From Halostagnicola kamekurae (GTDB lineage: Archaea > Halobacteriota > Halobacteria > Halobacteriales > Natrialbaceae), in NCBI RefSeq assembly GCF_900116205.1, contig NZ_FOZS01000001.1:868001-932000 (forward strand): a stretch of DNA of 64,000 bases. Direction: 5' to 3'. Shown here one piece after another: positions 7,780 to 20,446 of this stretch. The number at the start of each line of letters is the position of its first letter. Position 1 is the first letter of the stretch. The position numbers were made by a program, and so were the translations under genes. The notes beneath the pieces are model-generated. The model was not told the DNA's origin. It searched no databases and saw only the letters and a program-made list of their open reading frames with translations.

Positions 7780-8017
7780 GGGTATTCGTAGCGACCGGAC
7801 CGAGTTTAACGTACTGATTCTGAACACGTGTTTCCGGCTTCGTACTAGTAGTATATTCTATAACGATATATGGAATCCGAGGTCGTCTCGATCGTCCTGT
7901 CATCTCCCCTCGAGACTGAAATCGCGGTGAAGTGCGGTCGACGGCGGATTCTCGAGCGTTTCGCTGGCGATGACTGAAAGGAAGCCTTAAGTCGAACGCA
8001 CGGATACACACGGCTGC

Positions 8018-8092
8018 GGGTTGGTGATCTAGTCCGGTTATGATACCTCCTTCACACGGAGGAAGTCGGCAGTTCAAATCTGCCCCAACCCA
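8018..8092 (+). tRNA. tRNA-Val (anticodon CAC)
   Basis: The acceptor stem GGGTTGG (8018-8024) pairs with CCAACCC (8085-8091). The anticodon stem CCTCC/GGAGG encloses the 7-base loop TTCACAC, giving anticodon CAC for valine codon GUG. The T arm is CGGCAGTTCAAATCTGCCC. No intron and no encoded CCA is seen. Bases 8068-8094 are repeated exactly at 10093-10119, so this gene served as the attachment site of the element that follows. Confidence 0.95.
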
Positions 8093-8094
8093 CT
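8068..8094 (+). repeat. attL: left copy of the 27-bp att direct repeat, inside tRNA-Val(CAC)
   Basis: The repeat runs from GGCAGTTCAAATCTG to the ACT just after the tRNA. It is identical to 10093-10119 and covers the T arm and the 3' acceptor strand, so the integrated DNA restores an intact tRNA. Confidence 0.85.
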
Positions 8095-8265
8095 CGTCGC
8101 CTTACTCCTCGTGAACCCATAGACAGCGTAGGGACGTTTATAGGTAACACCAGTATTGATGAACTGGATTCCGTCAAGTCCCTTGTCGGGGGCCGTCGCC
8201 GTTGTGCGGTTATACAATAGAAGTCAAGAATGTTAGTTCTATCGACTATAAAATCCTGGAAATCT

Positions 8266-9126
8266 TCAACGGTCCATCTGATCGATCACATCTATCCACA
8301 GGAAATAACACAGTAGATTAAGTACTATCCCATATTGAACATCCGCTTCGCCTTGACCATGTAGCTGTGTATTCCTCCAACGATATAGAAGGCCGTATGC
8401 GTGTTCTTTATCCCCATCAACAAATTTAGCCACCTCTTCCCGGAATCTGTTGAGGTTTGACTCATGATGGTCGTCTACGATGGATTCTTCAAAATATACC
8501 AATAAGTCCGTGAGACTGCTACATGTTGTATCAGATTTATAATATTCACCATTCTTATGACTCCAAATTTCACCCTCTTTTTTAACAGTACCATCTCTTT
8601 CAATTACATCGCCAGATCTTGATTTGACATAGCCTTCCAAGACAGGATAAGCTACGTATGAGGCGACATAAGCAGTGTTATTTAACACCTCTGAACTATG
8701 TGACCGATCAACAGAGTGTTTTGTGCTAAGGGCGAGGTTAAATAACATTCTTGATTCAAACCACATGTCGCGAGTTATCATTGGCAATCTATTTTGAACT
8801 GAATCAAGAATCTCGTAGGTTAGGTTCCAATATCGCCTGTGGTCTGAAGTTATCTGAACCCGGAGTATGTTGGTTAATTGTACCGGCAGTTTCTGCAACA
8901 CATCAAACGGCAATTCTTCTATAGCTGGAAGAGAAGGATTCTCGGAAAACAAGTACTCTCTCTCCAACTCCCCAACGTTAGCATCATAGACATGACCACT
9001 TCCTGTTAGAATTGAGTCATTGAGAGGGAGTCCAGTTGGTCCAGAAGTAGAAAACATTCTTCGTTCAGGATACTGATCAACATAATCAGAATAATTCTCT
9101 TGGACCTGGCCCAAAATTCCACCCAT
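8266..9126 (-). CDS. Element-borne orphan protein with a C-terminal HEPN-like Rx4H motif
   Basis: A 286-residue protein with low-GC codon use unlike its neighbours, so recently acquired. I do not recognise the N-terminal 200 residues, which are mostly helical with conserved-looking aromatic residues. The C-terminal segment has LLYRWRNTQLHGQGEADV followed by a hydrophobic helix (YGIVLNLLCYFLWIDVI). Arg251-Asn252 and His256 form an R-N-x3-H motif of the kind that marks HEPN ribonuclease domains of abortive-infection and toxin proteins. Its place as the only cargo gene of a tRNA-inserted element fits an anti-virus or toxin role. The family assignment is inference from this motif and the flanking helix. 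Confidence 0.5.
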   Translation of the reverse strand: MGGILGQVQENYSDYVDQYPERRMFSTSGPTGLPLNDSILTGSGHVYDANVGELEREYLFSENPSLPAIEELPFDVLQKLPVQLTNILRVQITSDHRRYWNLTYEILDSVQNRLPMITRDMWFESRMLFNLALSTKHSVDRSHSSEVLNNTAYVASYVAYPVLEGYVKSRSGDVIERDGTVKKEGEIWSHKNGEYYKSDTTCSSLTDLLVYFEESIVDDHHESNLNRFREEVAKFVDGDKEHAYGLLYRWRNTQLHGQGEADVQYGIVLNLLCYFLWIDVIDQMDR

Positions 9127-9472
9127 TTATCATTAGTTTGGGGTAAACCTTCTTTAGTGTTATCCACCAAAGGAGTCCCTCAATTCCTTACGAACTGACC
9201 AAGGCATCTTTGTTAAGCAGGAAGGCCGACGCCCCGATCCGGGTTCCGGTAATTCGGCTCTGGTGAATCGCCATAGGGCGTTGGGTTGGACCTACATAGT
9301 GGCACTGCGAATGAGTCCAATCGTTTCGCCAGCGGAGATTCGGCGGAAACCGAAGCCGAAATTGTCCAAGAGTAGCGCATCGAGCCACCTGATATGGAGT
9401 TGAAAGTCGCCAGCGTCTAGGGATTCACCAGAGCCGGTAATTCAAAACGGCATTGAGATATAGAGACTATAG
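9127..9472. other. Gene-poor interior of the tRNA-Val element
   Basis: No open frame here has codon bias or a recognisable product. A 66-codon frame on the minus strand (9188-9388) begins and ends without family features. The stretch lies just beyond the truncated recombinase end, where the missing catalytic half (HxxR and Tyr motifs) would normally be; I do not find it in any of the six frames. Confidence 0.5.
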
Positions 9473-10060
9473 TCAGTAGCTAAGATTCTGGTCGGTGTTT
9501 GAAACGGACAAGTCCATATCGCCGTTTTCCCGCTGTTGAACTGGCTTGTAATCTTCAAGATCAAGCCCTCTAAGTGCCCCTCGACGACATCCACTGTGCC
9601 AAAACACGACGAACATAGCGTGTTTGGCAGTAGCATATTCGAACTTATCGAAGTACTGTAGCAATTTCTTCACCTCATCAAAGTCCATCATATCGTCGTG
9701 AGAGAGATCGCCCTTGGCGAAGTCGGGAGTTTCCAGCTTAGTGTGAAGCTCTTGGTTCCCGTCGGTCGCGTCTATCCTCTTGCAGAACTTGAAAAACGTT
9801 CTAAGGGTGCTGAAATGGTTGCGAATAGTTGAACCTGCTATTTTCTGTCGAAGGTGGAATTTGTACTCAAGGAAGTGTGACCCATCAATGTCCTGCACTG
9901 ATTCTATCCCTTGCTCCTCACACCAGTCACAAAACTGGTTGAGGTGATCCCTGTCTTTGTAGATCGTTGATTTGGCCTTCTCGCCGGTCCGGTCTTTGAT
10001 GTATAGTTCTATCAACTCATTCGGACTGTGATCGTCATCTGTTATTCGTTCTCCGCACAC
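9473..10060 (-). pseudogene. Truncated tyrosine recombinase/integrase (XerC/D-like)
   Basis: About 195 residues from a GTG at 10060. They contain the SAM-like core DNA-binding domain (helical; ISTR-like NHFSTLRTFFKFCK about 100-115) and the start of the catalytic domain through the first active-site arginine in WHSGCRRGALRGLDLEDY. After that point the protein ends within about 25 residues, so the HxxR box and the nucleophilic tyrosine are missing. No ATG precedes the conserved part; an alternative TTG at 10102 would start inside the att repeat. It sits against the right att copy, as expected for the element's own integrase. I see it as broken, but a frameshift-restored C-terminus was not found downstream. 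Confidence 0.75.
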
Positions 10061-10092
10061 GGCGACACAAACGGAGCGAAGCGGAGTGCGTA

Positions 10093-10119
10093 GGCAGTTC
10101 AAATCTGCCCCAACCCACT
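10093..10119 (+). repeat. attR: right copy of the 27-bp att direct repeat
   Basis: Identical to 8068-8094. Beyond it lies sequence that also follows the other tRNA-Val gene of this window (67 identical bases, 10093-10159 against 53601-53667 on the minus strand), which supports it as the original chromosomal flank. Confidence 0.85.
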
Positions 10120-16805: not shown

Positions 16806-18353
16806 TTAGGCGGGGATCGCAGACGGAGCGATCGCGGAGCCGAACTGCACGTTCTCCTGAGACTGCATGCTCACTTGCGAGGCCGTCGCTTCACCGTCGT
16901 CCTCGGCGACTGCGTACGCGGCGTGCTGTTCGTTCAGGTTCTCTTGGAAGAGCGACTGGTACTGGTCAACGTTTGCATCGGGCTGGTAGGCGACGTCCTG
17001 TTTCTGCTGGCCGCCGACGTCCGAGTCGATCGTCATGATCGGGTTCTCGGTGGAGTTTTCACCCTTCAGGGAGACTGTCGTCTCTTCGCTGTAGAGCACG
17101 CCCGGTGACGATCCGGCCGCGTTCGACGGAAGCGCCTGTGAGATGCCGATCTGGGCGTTGTGGTTCTCTTGATGGGAGATCTGAATCGCGGTCGCCTCGC
17201 TTCCGTTGAGCGCGATCGCGACGGCCGCGCTCTGCTGGTTGAGGTTGAGCTGGCTCACGTCCTGGTACTGGCTGACGCTCGCGTCGGTGGATCCGCTTCC
17301 TTTCTTTTTCTTGTCGTGGGGGGTCTTCTGTTTGTCACTGGTGCTCTCGACGACGTCGGAGCCGCCGTTGGTGCTCGCCGACGCGACGTTCATCCCTTCG
17401 GTCGCCTCGAGGACGGACGCCGAGTAGGCGCTACCGATTTGCTCGTTGATGTTCGACTGCTCGGTCGTCTGGATCGACGTCGCCGTCGACTCGTTGCCGA
17501 TGGCGATCGCGACGGCGAAGCCCTGGTGGTTGATGTTGGTCTGCATGCTATCCTGGGCTTGATCCAGCTCGGCGGTAGCGACCTGCGTACCACCGCTCGC
17601 CCTACTCGGGTTTACGTTTTCGGCGTTCGCGACGGCGCTCTGGGAGTTGACGTTGTGCTGGGAACTGTCCTGAATCGCGAGCGCGTCGCTGCCGTTCTCG
17701 GCAATCGCGAAGGCGACGCTCTGTTCGTTGACGTTCGCCTGATCGACCTGCTGTAGCTGCGTGACGGTCGCTTCCGAGTACTCTACCTCTTTGTCGGGTT
17801 TCTCGTCGTGGTCGCCGCCTTTCTCACCGGCGACCGCCCAGCCGTCGAAGCGCTGGTTGTTCTCCTCGCCGAAGAGGAAGTAGACGTCACCGACGTCCTG
17901 GAACTCGACGTGTTGGTCCTGCAGGTGCTGGTTCTCGGAGATCGCCTCTCCCTCCTGCGTGTTCTCGTTCGTCTGTCTGGAGTCCTGGATGGCCGTCGCG
18001 TCACCGCCGTCGATCGAGATGGAGGCCGCCCCCTCCTGTACGTCGACATTGGTCTGGTTCACGTCCTGGTACTGGACGATATCGGCGGCCGGACTCGAGG
18101 TGCCGGACGCGTCGCTTTCCCTGCTCTCGAGGTGTTCGTCTACGTACTCTTCGACTGATTGGTCGCCGAGGTCCGCACCGAAGACGAAGTAGAGGTCCTC
18201 TCCGTCCTGGAGCGTGTGGAGCGTTCGCTCGTCCTCGCCGGTACCATCCCCGCCGGAATCGTCCTGCGCGGTCGCGGGAAGGGCCGCGCCCGTCATCGAG
18301 AGCGCGAGCATCGCGACGACGAGAACTGTCGTGAGTTGTGATCGTGATATCAT
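16806..18353 (-). CDS. Secreted Q/N-ladder repeat protein, curlin-like
   Basis: A 515-residue exported protein: Sec signal 1-29 ending LPATAQ, then an acidic linker. It carries five imperfect copies (about 94-134, 199-240, 265-307, 362-403, 464-505) of a 42-residue unit. Each unit has two cores of the form Q-D-x-x-Q-x-N-x-N-x-Q, about 27 residues apart, joined by a small-residue strand such as SAAVAIALNGSEATA. Regular Gln/Asn ladders flanked by Ala/Val strands are typical of curlin repeats and other amyloid-like beta-solenoids. A different motif, DLYFVFGADLG / DVYFLFGEENN, occurs twice near 53 and 156. An amyloid or adhesin role is inference. A TTG at 18377 is an alternative start. Confidence 0.7.
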   Translation of the reverse strand: MISRSQLTTVLVVAMLALSMTGAALPATAQDDSGGDGTGEDERTLHTLQDGEDLYFVFGADLGDQSVEEYVDEHLESRESDASGTSSPAADIVQYQDVNQTNVDVQEGAASISIDGGDATAIQDSRQTNENTQEGEAISENQHLQDQHVEFQDVGDVYFLFGEENNQRFDGWAVAGEKGGDHDEKPDKEVEYSEATVTQLQQVDQANVNEQSVAFAIAENGSDALAIQDSSQHNVNSQSAVANAENVNPSRASGGTQVATAELDQAQDSMQTNINHQGFAVAIAIGNESTATSIQTTEQSNINEQIGSAYSASVLEATEGMNVASASTNGGSDVVESTSDKQKTPHDKKKKGSGSTDASVSQYQDVSQLNLNQQSAAVAIALNGSEATAIQISHQENHNAQIGISQALPSNAAGSSPGVLYSEETTVSLKGENSTENPIMTIDSDVGGQQKQDVAYQPDANVDQYQSLFQENLNEQHAAYAVAEDDGEATASQVSMQSQENVQFGSAIAPSAIPA

Positions 18354-19086
18354 CGTGTATTTTTGGTATCGTTTCAAATGCCCTGTGAGGGTCTTTTTTA
18401 CTGCATCTTCGCGGTGCGAACCATCATTTTCCGAATAGTGTCTTTGTTATCTGTAGGTTGTCGGGCAGAACAAGGTCGTTACCGCCTCGAACGAGCCGTT
18501 CGAATTCCGAGACGAACTCGAAGCCTGTCGCTACTCGCGGAAACCGTTCGGACCGGCGGGATTCCATGTGCTATGAGAGCTACTGACACACTAGCTCGCG
18601 GCCGAGACGTTCAGTAACTCGAGCATGTAGGCCTGTATATCCACGAAACGGGGACTCTCCGTGTCGATAGACACTCAAGCGAACCGGACACACAGCAGAT
18701 TCGATTCGTGTGTATGCGAAATTACCCGCTCGCGCTGCCGGTATAGCCGCTGCATACGATCTCGAGACACCGATTAAATCGTCGGTAGGTTTCCCGTTCC
18801 GGCGATAAATTGGTGATACAGTGACTGACAACTCGAGAGTGACGTGTAACGGTGATCGAACGGCGACACAATCGAAAATAGACCATTGAAACTGTAATTC
18901 GGGTTAATACGGGCGCTGGTGGTCGGGACCAACCGGGCAACGCGCCGTGGCATCGCTCGGATCGGTCGACAACCCGCGAGGAACCGCGCACTCGAAGTGC
19001 TGGGAGAACCCAGAAACGCGGTGCGCTGGTGACGACCCGGTTTCGGCGGTCCGCGCGTGTATGCCCGGACGATGCACTAAGCAAAC
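18354..19086. other. Divergent intergenic region between two secreted-protein genes
   Basis: This 730-bp stretch has no coding frame with haloarchaeal codon use. It is more AT-rich than its surroundings and separates the repeat protein on the minus strand from a second exported protein on the plus strand. It probably holds both promoters and long leader sequence. I see no clear operator palindrome. Confidence 0.5.
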
Positions 19087-19731
19087 ATGAAACGCACATT
19101 CACAGCGCTGATGGTATTCGCACTCCTCGGCAGCCTCGCATTCATGGGGTTCGCCGGGACTGCAGCGGCACAGAACGATGGCGTCGGAGCACCCGGACCC
19201 GGCGATGACGGTGGATTCGGTGATATCGGCGTCGGCGTCGGCGGCGATGGTGGCGACGGCGGCGACGCCACGCACGAAGGGCACGAAGTCGACGTGAGCA
19301 CCGGACCAGCGATCGTTGATCAAGAACAAGACGCGTCGAACTCCAACACCCAGGCGGCGAGCAGCTCGAGTCCTGGTGAGAACCCGAACCACAACAAGTA
19401 CCACGATGACAACGGCGGTAACGGTGCTGATGTGGTCCAGGGTCAGGAAGTCGAGCAAGAGAACGAGCAAGCACAGGCCGGATACGCTGACTCCTCCGCC
19501 GACGTCGACGTCGACGGTGACGCTGAAGCCGGAGACGGTGGCGACGGTGGCGACGCTGACGTCGACCAGAGCGAGGAAACTGATTTCGAATTCAGTCCCG
19601 GTCCAAATGACAACGTTGGAGAAGAGCCTGACACCGGTAACGGTGACACCGGTAACGGTGACACCGGTAACGGTGACACTGGCACCGGTAGCAGTCTCCT
19701 CGATCTCCTCGTCGAACTTGGACTGTTCTAA
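19087..19731 (+). CDS. Secreted Gly/Asp-rich protein with one curlin-like Q/N unit
   Basis: A 214-residue exported protein with a Sec signal (MKRTFTALMVFALLGSLAFM, cleavage near TAAAQ at 29). The mature part is Gly/Asp-rich and highly acidic. Two patches, IVDQEQDASNSNTQAASSSS and VVQGQEVEQENEQAQAGYA, follow the Q..Q.N.Q pattern of the large repeat protein across the intergenic region, so the two are probably related parts of one surface system. A GNGDT repeat (three 15-bp copies, 19631-19675) links to a hydrophobic C-terminus LLDLLVELGLF. Codon use is haloarchaeal. The gene ends in three consecutive hairpins. Confidence 0.7.
   Translation: MKRTFTALMVFALLGSLAFMGFAGTAAAQNDGVGAPGPGDDGGFGDIGVGVGGDGGDGGDATHEGHEVDVSTGPAIVDQEQDASNSNTQAASSSSPGENPNHNKYHDDNGGNGADVVQGQEVEQENEQAQAGYADSSADVDVDGDAEAGDGGDGGDADVDQSEETDFEFSPGPNDNVGEEPDTGNGDTGNGDTGNGDTGTGSSLLDLLVELGLF
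19631..19690 (+). repeat. 15-bp tandem repeat coding GNGDT units
   Basis: ACACCGGTAACGGTG is present three times without change (19631-19675) and a degenerate fourth copy follows. It is in frame in the secreted protein and could vary in number by slippage, changing linker length. Confidence 0.85.
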
Positions 19732-19733
19732 AA

Positions 19734-19798
19734 TAGCAGGGGAGAACTGCTAGCAAGCGGGTTTCTACCCGCTTTCCGATCACGGAAGGTGTGATCGG
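19734..19798 (+). terminator. Three back-to-back perfect stem-loops after the secreted-protein gene
   Basis: Directly after the stop codon (19729-19731) lie TAGCAG/CTGCTA (19734-19739 with 19747-19752), AAGCGGGT/ACCCGCTT (19755-19762 with 19767-19774, loop TTCT) and CCGATCAC/GTGATCGG (19776-19783 with 19791-19798). The stems are 6, 8 and 8 bp with no mismatch and 1-2 bases between hairpins. The position suggests a terminator or 3' RNA-stabilising element; archaeal terminators are usually T-runs, so the structure may have another role. Confidence 0.6.
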
Positions 19799-19852
19799 GC
19801 ATAACCCAAATTCGATATTTTATACACGAACTTCAGATACTACGTAAAAATC

Positions 19853-19900
19853 ATGAAACAACATTCACTGTGCGATTTCGGGCGACAATACGGTGAGTAA
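19853..19900 (+). CDS. Possible 15-codon leader ORF of the 180-aa gene
   Basis: ATG at 19853 opens MKQHSLCDFGRQYGE and stops at TAA 19898-19900, 3 bases before the ATG of the next gene. A TATA-like TTTATA at 19819-19824 would start the transcript close to 19850, making this a leaderless first cistron. The sequence GGTGAG within its last two codons sits where a ribosome-binding site for the next gene would be, so translation of the two could be coupled. Expression is unproved. Confidence 0.35.
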   Translation: MKQHSLCDFGRQYGE

Positions 19901-19903
19901 CCG

Positions 19904-20446
19904 ATGGGACGATCGACAACGGGAATTGTAGTGGCGGTGGGTTTACTACTCGTGATCGGCGCAGGAGTCGTTGCCGTCGCCGGTATCGGCGGCCCGGCGG
20001 ATGTCGACGATTCCGAGAACGAAACGAACCTGACCGACGAGTGTCACGAGGCCCTCAATGCGTCGAACGAATCCATCGATGCCAACGTCTCCGTCGACGA
20101 ACTGCCCGACGACGCCGAGATCGAATGTGAAGGACTGGAAGACGACACCATGTTCAACATAACTATCGAAACGAACGAATCGAGCGACGACGGAACCACG
20201 GTCACCTCGACGGTGCGGACGATCGTCTGGGACACGGAAGACGAACGGGCCGTCTCTCACAGCGTCGCGACGAGCACCTCGTCGCAGCACACCGAGTCGA
20301 ACGGGTCGACGAGCCAGCGCACGTCCACGAACCAGAGCAGCACGGTCGTGACCGGCGGGGAAAGCGTCGACATCGATCGAGGGGACGTTGTCGCCGAAGA
20401 CGGTGAAGACGGCGAAGACGGCGAGGTAAACGTAAGTACCGAGTAG
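19904..20446 (+). CDS. Membrane-anchored acidic, Ser/Thr-rich extracellular protein
   Basis: A 180-residue protein with one N-terminal hydrophobic segment (GIVVAVGLLLVIGAGVVAVAGI, about 6-27) that could be an anchor or an uncleaved signal. The rest is Glu/Asp/Ser/Thr/Asn-rich, with many N-x-S/T sites (for example NETNLT, NASNES, NQSS), which suit N-glycosylation. A Cys pair (near 47 and 75) could form a disulphide. A tail of EDGEDGEDGE repeats follows. I do not recognise the family. It shares its neighbourhood and composition with two other exported proteins, so a joint surface role is likely. Confidence 0.6.
   Translation: MGRSTTGIVVAVGLLLVIGAGVVAVAGIGGPADVDDSENETNLTDECHEALNASNESIDANVSVDELPDDAEIECEGLEDDTMFNITIETNESSDDGTTVTSTVRTIVWDTEDERAVSHSVATSTSSQHTESNGSTSQRTSTNQSSTVVTGGESVDIDRGDVVAEDGEDGEDGEVNVSTE

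Follow-up and report, generated by a model that had tools for sequence, protein, structure and literature searches.

Whether haloarchaea possess a functional amyloid of their own is the question raised by two divergent genes of Halostagnicola kamekurae, located in a 64,000-nucleotide (nt) stretch of contig NZ_FOZS01000001.1 (positions 868,001 to 932,000; hereafter the window). These genes encode P1, a protein of 515 residues, and P2, of 214 residues. Both products show a signal segment and ladders of Gln and Asn, in agreement with a preliminary description of the sequence that considered them exported ladder proteins. Like functional amyloids, P1 is exported and made of imperfect repeats with conserved Gln/Asn columns. 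We propose that haloarchaea build an extracellular cross-β assembly with P1 as its major and P2 as its minor subunit, a proposal that we judge to stand at even chances and that starts from the repeat itself, its conservation and the association of the two genes.

The ladder repeat and its family

A relaxed core pattern finds nine matches in P1, eight of which are the exact Q...Q.N.N.Q; when the degenerate first core of unit 1 (QDVNQTNVDVQ) is included, ten cores are arranged in five pairs, with within-pair spacings of 27, 27, 28, 27 and 27 residues. The five units with two Gln/Asn cores each that had been noticed earlier are thus confirmed. This pattern is not due to chance, since in 20,000 composition-preserving shuffles of the mature protein exact cores averaged 0.0028 and never exceeded two, versus the eight observed. 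The unit length of 42 residues given in the preliminary description was too short; a profile built from 305 units of 61 distinct P1-type proteins spans 55 positions, with the consensus AxAxVxQxQxVxQxNxNxQ-xx-AxAIAxx(D/N)GSxATAxQx(S/T)xQxNxNxQxGxAxAxN. Along this unit nearly fixed Gln, Asn, Ala and Val columns, assigned to the inward face, alternate with variable outward neighbours: conservation is 84-100% in the inward Gln and Asn columns of both cores and at most 40% in the majority of their outward neighbours. The alternation is broken by a single two-residue phase shift at profile positions 19-20, before the AxA. Across 38 aligned P1 homologues, the invariant columns are almost only the Gln, Asn and Ala of the ladders.

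The number of units is exactly five in 60 of the 61 distinct proteins, and the linkers between them measure, in order, 38-51, 7-38, 35-80 and 34-66 residues. P1 itself has five sequons. Among the distinct homologues, a sequon is present at the tip of units 1 to 5 in 3/60, 47/61, 42/61, 53/61 and 7/61 cases, so that its near absence sets the end units 1 and 5 apart from the inner units 2-4. Such a pattern matches what would be expected for a five-layer stack with special ends. A well-conserved segment, DLYFVFG or DVYFLFG, is repeated before unit 1 and between units 1 and 2. The calculated isoelectric point of P1 is acidic (4.05). Two start codons are available, an ATG at 18353 that yields the 515-residue protein and a TTG at 18377 that adds eight residues (523); the ATG is the better start and produces an N-terminus with the hydrophobicity characteristic of Sec signals.

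A search of other haloarchaea, as the preliminary description had suggested, revealed a ladder family with a conserved gene neighbourhood, found throughout the Natrialbaceae and also in the Haladaptataceae; its view of an archaeal system is upheld. P1 relatives were detected in 39 of 80 related genomes by protein search and in 58 of 292 Halobacteria genomes by profile search, 55 of these in Natrialbaceae and three in two other families. The matches of the unit profile in 295 genomes of the phylum were confined to Natrialbaceae, and a contig scan with single-sequence patterns matched in Halostagnicola sp. A56 only. Relatives also reside on plasmids, namely those of Natronorubrum and Haloterrigena and, within the family Haladaptataceae, those of Haladaptatus and Halomicrococcus; annotated plasmid records name these proteins "hypothetical protein" or "PGF-CTERM sorting domain-containing protein". 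No Pfam family matched P1 at hmmscan E <= 10, searches of NCBIfam and PHROGs gave weak spurious matches only, and sequence searches of the PDB returned nothing relevant. A viral origin of P1 was rejected: phage records held no relative, 83 pattern matches in viral contigs included none, and a search of a viral fold library gave insignificant matches only.

Six homologues (L034, L053 and L057-L060) end in a PGF-CTERM, that is, a C-terminal PGF motif followed by a hydrophobic helix, preceded by an acidic linker; the same tail occurs in annotated proteins of Halomicrococcus and Natrononativus and is absent from the P1 of the window. Judging by these tails, the ladder domain exists in released and in archaeosortase-anchored forms. 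Five homologues carry a twin-arginine (Tat) signal in place of Sec. A second P1 subfamily (L061-L065), with twin-arginine signals and frequently with lysine-rich C-terminal tails, is encoded away from the canonical locus; both kinds of P1 co-occur in some genomes, e.g., G031.

P2 carries the ladder in two places, as had been observed earlier, and both match the P1 unit profile as half-units; its ladder count was reached by none of 20,000 shuffles. The order of the halves is swapped with respect to P1 (second half, linker, first half), which makes P2 a permuted single unit. P2-type proteins have one unit each, either straight or permuted. Natural circular permutation of the unit is seen, for instance, in L069, L070, L047 and the P2 of the window. 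P2-type genes adjoin P1 not only in the syntenic locus; they do so in three further contexts as well, namely beside a Tat-form P1 (L062) and on the plasmids of Halomicrococcus (L108) and Haladaptatus (L109). This repeated adjacency in differing contexts is the principal argument for a joint function of P1 and P2. The positions of all these features are collected in Table 1.

Table 1. Position of the P1/P2 features and of the neighbouring P3 gene in the window
Feature	Position	Strand	Basis
P1, 515-residue exported five-unit ladder protein, candidate major subunit	16806..18353	-	ORF (open reading frame), homologues, alignment of homologues
P1 N-terminal Sec-type signal segment, residues 1-29 (approximate)	18267..18353	-	sequence; hydrophobic N-terminus conserved in homologue alignment
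P1 unit 1, residues 88-142; tip IDGGD, without sequon	17928..18092	-	
P1 unit 2, residues 193-247; tip ENGS, sequon	17613..17777	-	
P1 unit 3, residues 259-314; tip GNEST, sequon; exceeds the other units by one residue	17412..17579	-	
P1 unit 4, residues 356-410; tip LNGS, sequon	17124..17288	-	
P1 unit 5, residues 458-512; tip EDDG, without sequon	16818..16982	-	
DLYFVFG / DVYFLFG repeats, P1 residues 46-60 and 149-175	within 17829-18218	-	
P1 upstream region, about 110 nt, conserved across genera; carries ACAGATAACAAAGAC at 18440-18454	18354..18465	-	
Conserved element TGAAACTGTAATTCGGGTTAA, 180-200 nt upstream of P2	18887..18907	+	
P2, 214-residue exported protein, one unit in two permuted halves, candidate minor subunit	19087..19731	+	
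P2 first half-unit, residues 79-94 (profile 36-51)	19321..19368	+	unit profile match
P2 second half-unit, residues 114-131 (profile 3-20)	19426..19479	+	unit profile match
P3, 180-residue membrane-anchored, sequon-rich neighbour	19904..20446	+	

Predicted fold of the unit

An AlphaFold2 model of P1, obtained with 38 sequences, has a mean predicted local distance difference test (pLDDT) of 63.5 and a predicted template modelling score (pTM) of 0.50. Each unit is modelled as two long strands, 20-29 residues each, on either side of a tight turn; most unit blocks have a pLDDT of 76-89, and the long linkers are mostly below 50. The model of a Tat-form homologue (50 sequences) gave a mean pLDDT of 65.2 and a pTM of 0.57, and in it the strand breaks near the phase shift. 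From these models the units of P1 are predicted, with moderate confidence, to form β rungs.

Foldseek comparison of both models with the PDB gave no significant match, the best E values being 1.4 and 3.5 with template modelling scores (TM-scores) of at most 0.25. The structures listed, all non-significant, were SufD or SufB-SufC-SufD, PL3 pectate lyases, Awp3b and FapC; the last ranked second and first for the two models, but with E = 3.4 and 3.5 and TM-scores <=0.25. We take SufD and SufB-SufC-SufD, the PL3 pectate lyases and Awp3b to be parallel β-helices, and FapC to be a parallel cross-β fibril. Since the matches are all parallel β folds, they lend slight support to parallel stacking. The stacked β fold anticipated in the preliminary description is probably correct. 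Adjacent units paired in register covaried slightly more than under the permutation null (p = 0.041, underpowered with about 40 effective sequences), and no antiparallel covariation was found around the tip (sums 56-59 negative, likewise underpowered at about 40).

The two strands and tight turn of the model would fit an antiparallel hairpin as well as an arch. If each unit were a long hairpin, the ten strands of P1 could form extended sheets with the Gln/Asn columns paired across the hairpin, giving a protein of the sheath or coat kind; the sheath proteins of Methanospirillum are reported to be amyloid-like β-structures of another kind (PMC10593813, PMC6242892). We hold this arrangement to be improbable: the Foldseek matches, although non-significant, are parallel, the antiparallel diagonal around the tip is devoid of covariation (negative sums at 56-59), and the phase shift at profile 19-20 interrupts a continuous alternation at the place where the strand breaks in the model of the Tat homologue.

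Several observations weigh against the proposed assembly. The mean pLDDT is only 63-65 for both models, and the PDB comparison described above returned nothing significant; covariation favours parallel over antiparallel pairing weakly, on too few sequences (about 40 effective); some genera of Natrialbaceae in the 292-genome search are without the system; and the DLYFVFG-type segment may be a cap that prevents polymerisation. Such a cap would suit the principal rival, in which P1 is a monomeric capped β-solenoid at the cell surface (an adhesin, an S-layer-associated protein or a ligand-binding scaffold), P2 is a truncated paralogue and no polymer is formed; the ladders would then merely stabilise the five-rung fold of P1. 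The fixed number of five units, the linkers with recognisable conserved segments and the PGF-CTERM anchoring of some homologues agree with this possibility, as does the fact that most of the non-amyloid Foldseek matches, e.g., SufD and the PL3 pectate lyases, are β-helix proteins that do not polymerise. Many β-solenoid proteins are known that form no fibres (PMC10192328). On the other hand, a one-rung P2 would hardly be stable unless stacked, yet it is kept beside P1 in independent contexts; FapC, which does form fibres, typically has a constant number of repeats as well, namely three (PMC12822426); and the lack of tip sequons on the end units would keep the end surfaces free of glycans. On balance we find the monomeric solenoid unlikely.

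Comparison with known amyloids and proposed assembly

The resemblance to curli that the preliminary description had stressed lies in the design and does not extend to family membership. P1 and P2 share with CsgA and CsgB the Gln/Asn ladders, the inward-outward alternation and the idea of a major and a minor subunit (PMC10192328, PMC3521004), as well as divergent genes set far apart (median intergenic distance 682 nt in P1/P2). However, curlin repeats are contiguous, of approximately 22-23 residues, follow N-$-psi-$-psi-$-Q-x-G-x-x and vary in number (PMC10192328), whereas the units of P1 have about 55 residues, long linkers (7-80 residues) and a constant count. A scan of 21 genomes with PF07012 (Curlin_rpt) gave nothing above the cut-off and no match at P1, and CsgG (PF03783), which serves an outer membrane that archaea do not have, had no match above the cut-off in 13 genomes. 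The identification of P1 as a curlin was rejected on these grounds, namely the missing Curlin_rpt and CsgG and the different repeat length and spacing.

The layout of P1 most resembles that of FapC, more closely than that of CsgA. In FapC each imperfect repeat forms one cross-β layer; the Asn/Gln networks are conserved, the linkers are long and the number of repeats hardly varies (PMC12392863, PMC12822426). Like FapC and FapB of Pseudomonas (PDB 9u4u, 9nqd; PMC12392863), P1 is exported and has long imperfect repeats, conserved Gln/Asn columns and variable linkers; likewise, the repeat number is nearly constant (three in Fap, five in P1) and a smaller partner shares the repeat. In contrast, no sequence similarity to Fap was detected, the consensus of the five units of about 55 residues differs, P1 has N-glycosylation sequons at its tips and needs no outer-membrane machinery, and P2 has one unit instead of three. 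The FapC repeat is a Greek-key arch; for the P1 unit, AlphaFold2 predicts two strands that would fit an arch or a hairpin. A comparison of the unit profile with all PDB chains, FapC included, gave a single irrelevant match (E 2) and neither a FapC nor a CsgA chain. No fap-type gene was recognised among the neighbours of P1 (radB, a RuvC-like gene, larC and cdc48), where no search with fap profiles was made.

If an archaeon had acquired P1 and P2 from bacteria as genuine curli or Fap proteins, the common ladder logic and the export would be accounted for. We regard this origin as extremely improbable, considering that P1 has no Pfam match and that, besides the profile searches already mentioned, no bacterial relative was found among 72,556 plasmids. 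As archaeal, extracellular proteins with amyloid-like β-structure, the sheath proteins SH of Methanospirillum and MspA of Methanosaeta are also comparable to P1 (PMC10593813, PMC6242892). The unit profile had no match outside haloarchaea in the 295 genomes of the phylum; no direct sequence comparison with SH or MspA was made. On the best single account, P1 is a secreted subunit that stacks in cross-β layers and P2 is its one-rung partner; the two would work like FapC or curli and be members of neither.

In the proposed assembly, P1 would be exported via Sec, or via Tat in some relatives, and each of its units would form one β-arch rung with Gln, Asn, Ala and Val turned inward and the variable residues outward. 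The five rungs would stack in register, so that equal Gln and Asn columns build hydrogen-bonded ladders and the linkers loop out sideways; units 1 and 5 would be the ends of the stack, and the tips of units 2-4 would bear N-glycans. The end rungs could dock onto the next P1 or onto the one-rung P2, which would nucleate or cap the polymer, and this docking would give rise to a matrix or surface fibre with a possible role in biofilms or adhesion, the PGF-CTERM versions remaining anchored to the cell. A more specific and more tentative version, plausible at somewhat less than even chances, is that these proteins constitute a new archaeal family of functional amyloids unrelated in sequence to curli and Fap, in which glycan-edged five-rung subunits and a one-rung nucleator or cap form a matrix fibre peculiar to the Natrialbaceae and Haladaptataceae lineages.

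The archaeal amyloids described so far are the methanogen sheaths. Biofilms of Haloferax stain for amyloid, and HVO_1403, a homologue of an amyloidogenic factor, was put forward as a tentative candidate (PMC4180959); beyond this suggestion we found no haloarchaeal amyloid gene in the literature, the coverage of which was incomplete. A named and conserved P1/P2 pair makes haloarchaeal amyloid directly testable. If the proposal is true, the Gln/Asn-ladder design has arisen beyond the bacterial families known to use it, in a form that has glycosylated edges and assembles at high salt, which would be relevant to the evolution of amyloids and to salt-stable biomaterials.

Intergenic region and neighbouring genes

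The canonical order of the locus is radB, the RuvC-like gene, P1, the divergent P2-type genes (one to three copies), larC and cdc48, where the names of the neighbours are readings of translated sequences. The P1-P2 intergenic region measures 505-828 nt (median 682), the exceptions among the loci measured being one of 1106 nt and one P2 found only at 1727 nt. Divergent promoters had been assumed from the start, and the two genes are in fact transcribed divergently with conserved motifs upstream of both. The motif ACAGATAACAAAGAC occurs once in the genome at zero mismatches, and TGAAACTGTAATTCGGGTTAA is the sole genome copy even when two mismatches are allowed. The P1 upstream region showed no Rfam family and no consensus RNA fold that would indicate a regulatory RNA. 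As for the accessory proteins that had been supposed, none is conserved at the locus among relatives.

A third protein, P3, had been grouped with P1 and P2. Its hydrophobic segment, which is N-terminal, and its richness in sequons (ten) were corroborated; its membership in the cluster was not, as it has no ladder and is not conserved, being present, among the loci examined, only in two of the same genus (L035 and L036). P3 was consequently dropped as a component, and it is probably a neighbour that does not belong to the P1/P2 system.

Elsewhere in the window, the G+C content dips to 0.456 at positions 8001-10000, versus approximately 0.64 around it, and in this part an open reading frame of 209 residues (9473-10102, minus strand) resembles a truncated tyrosine recombinase/integrase. 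The low-G+C stretch together with this integrase-like frame suggests the remains of an integrated element.

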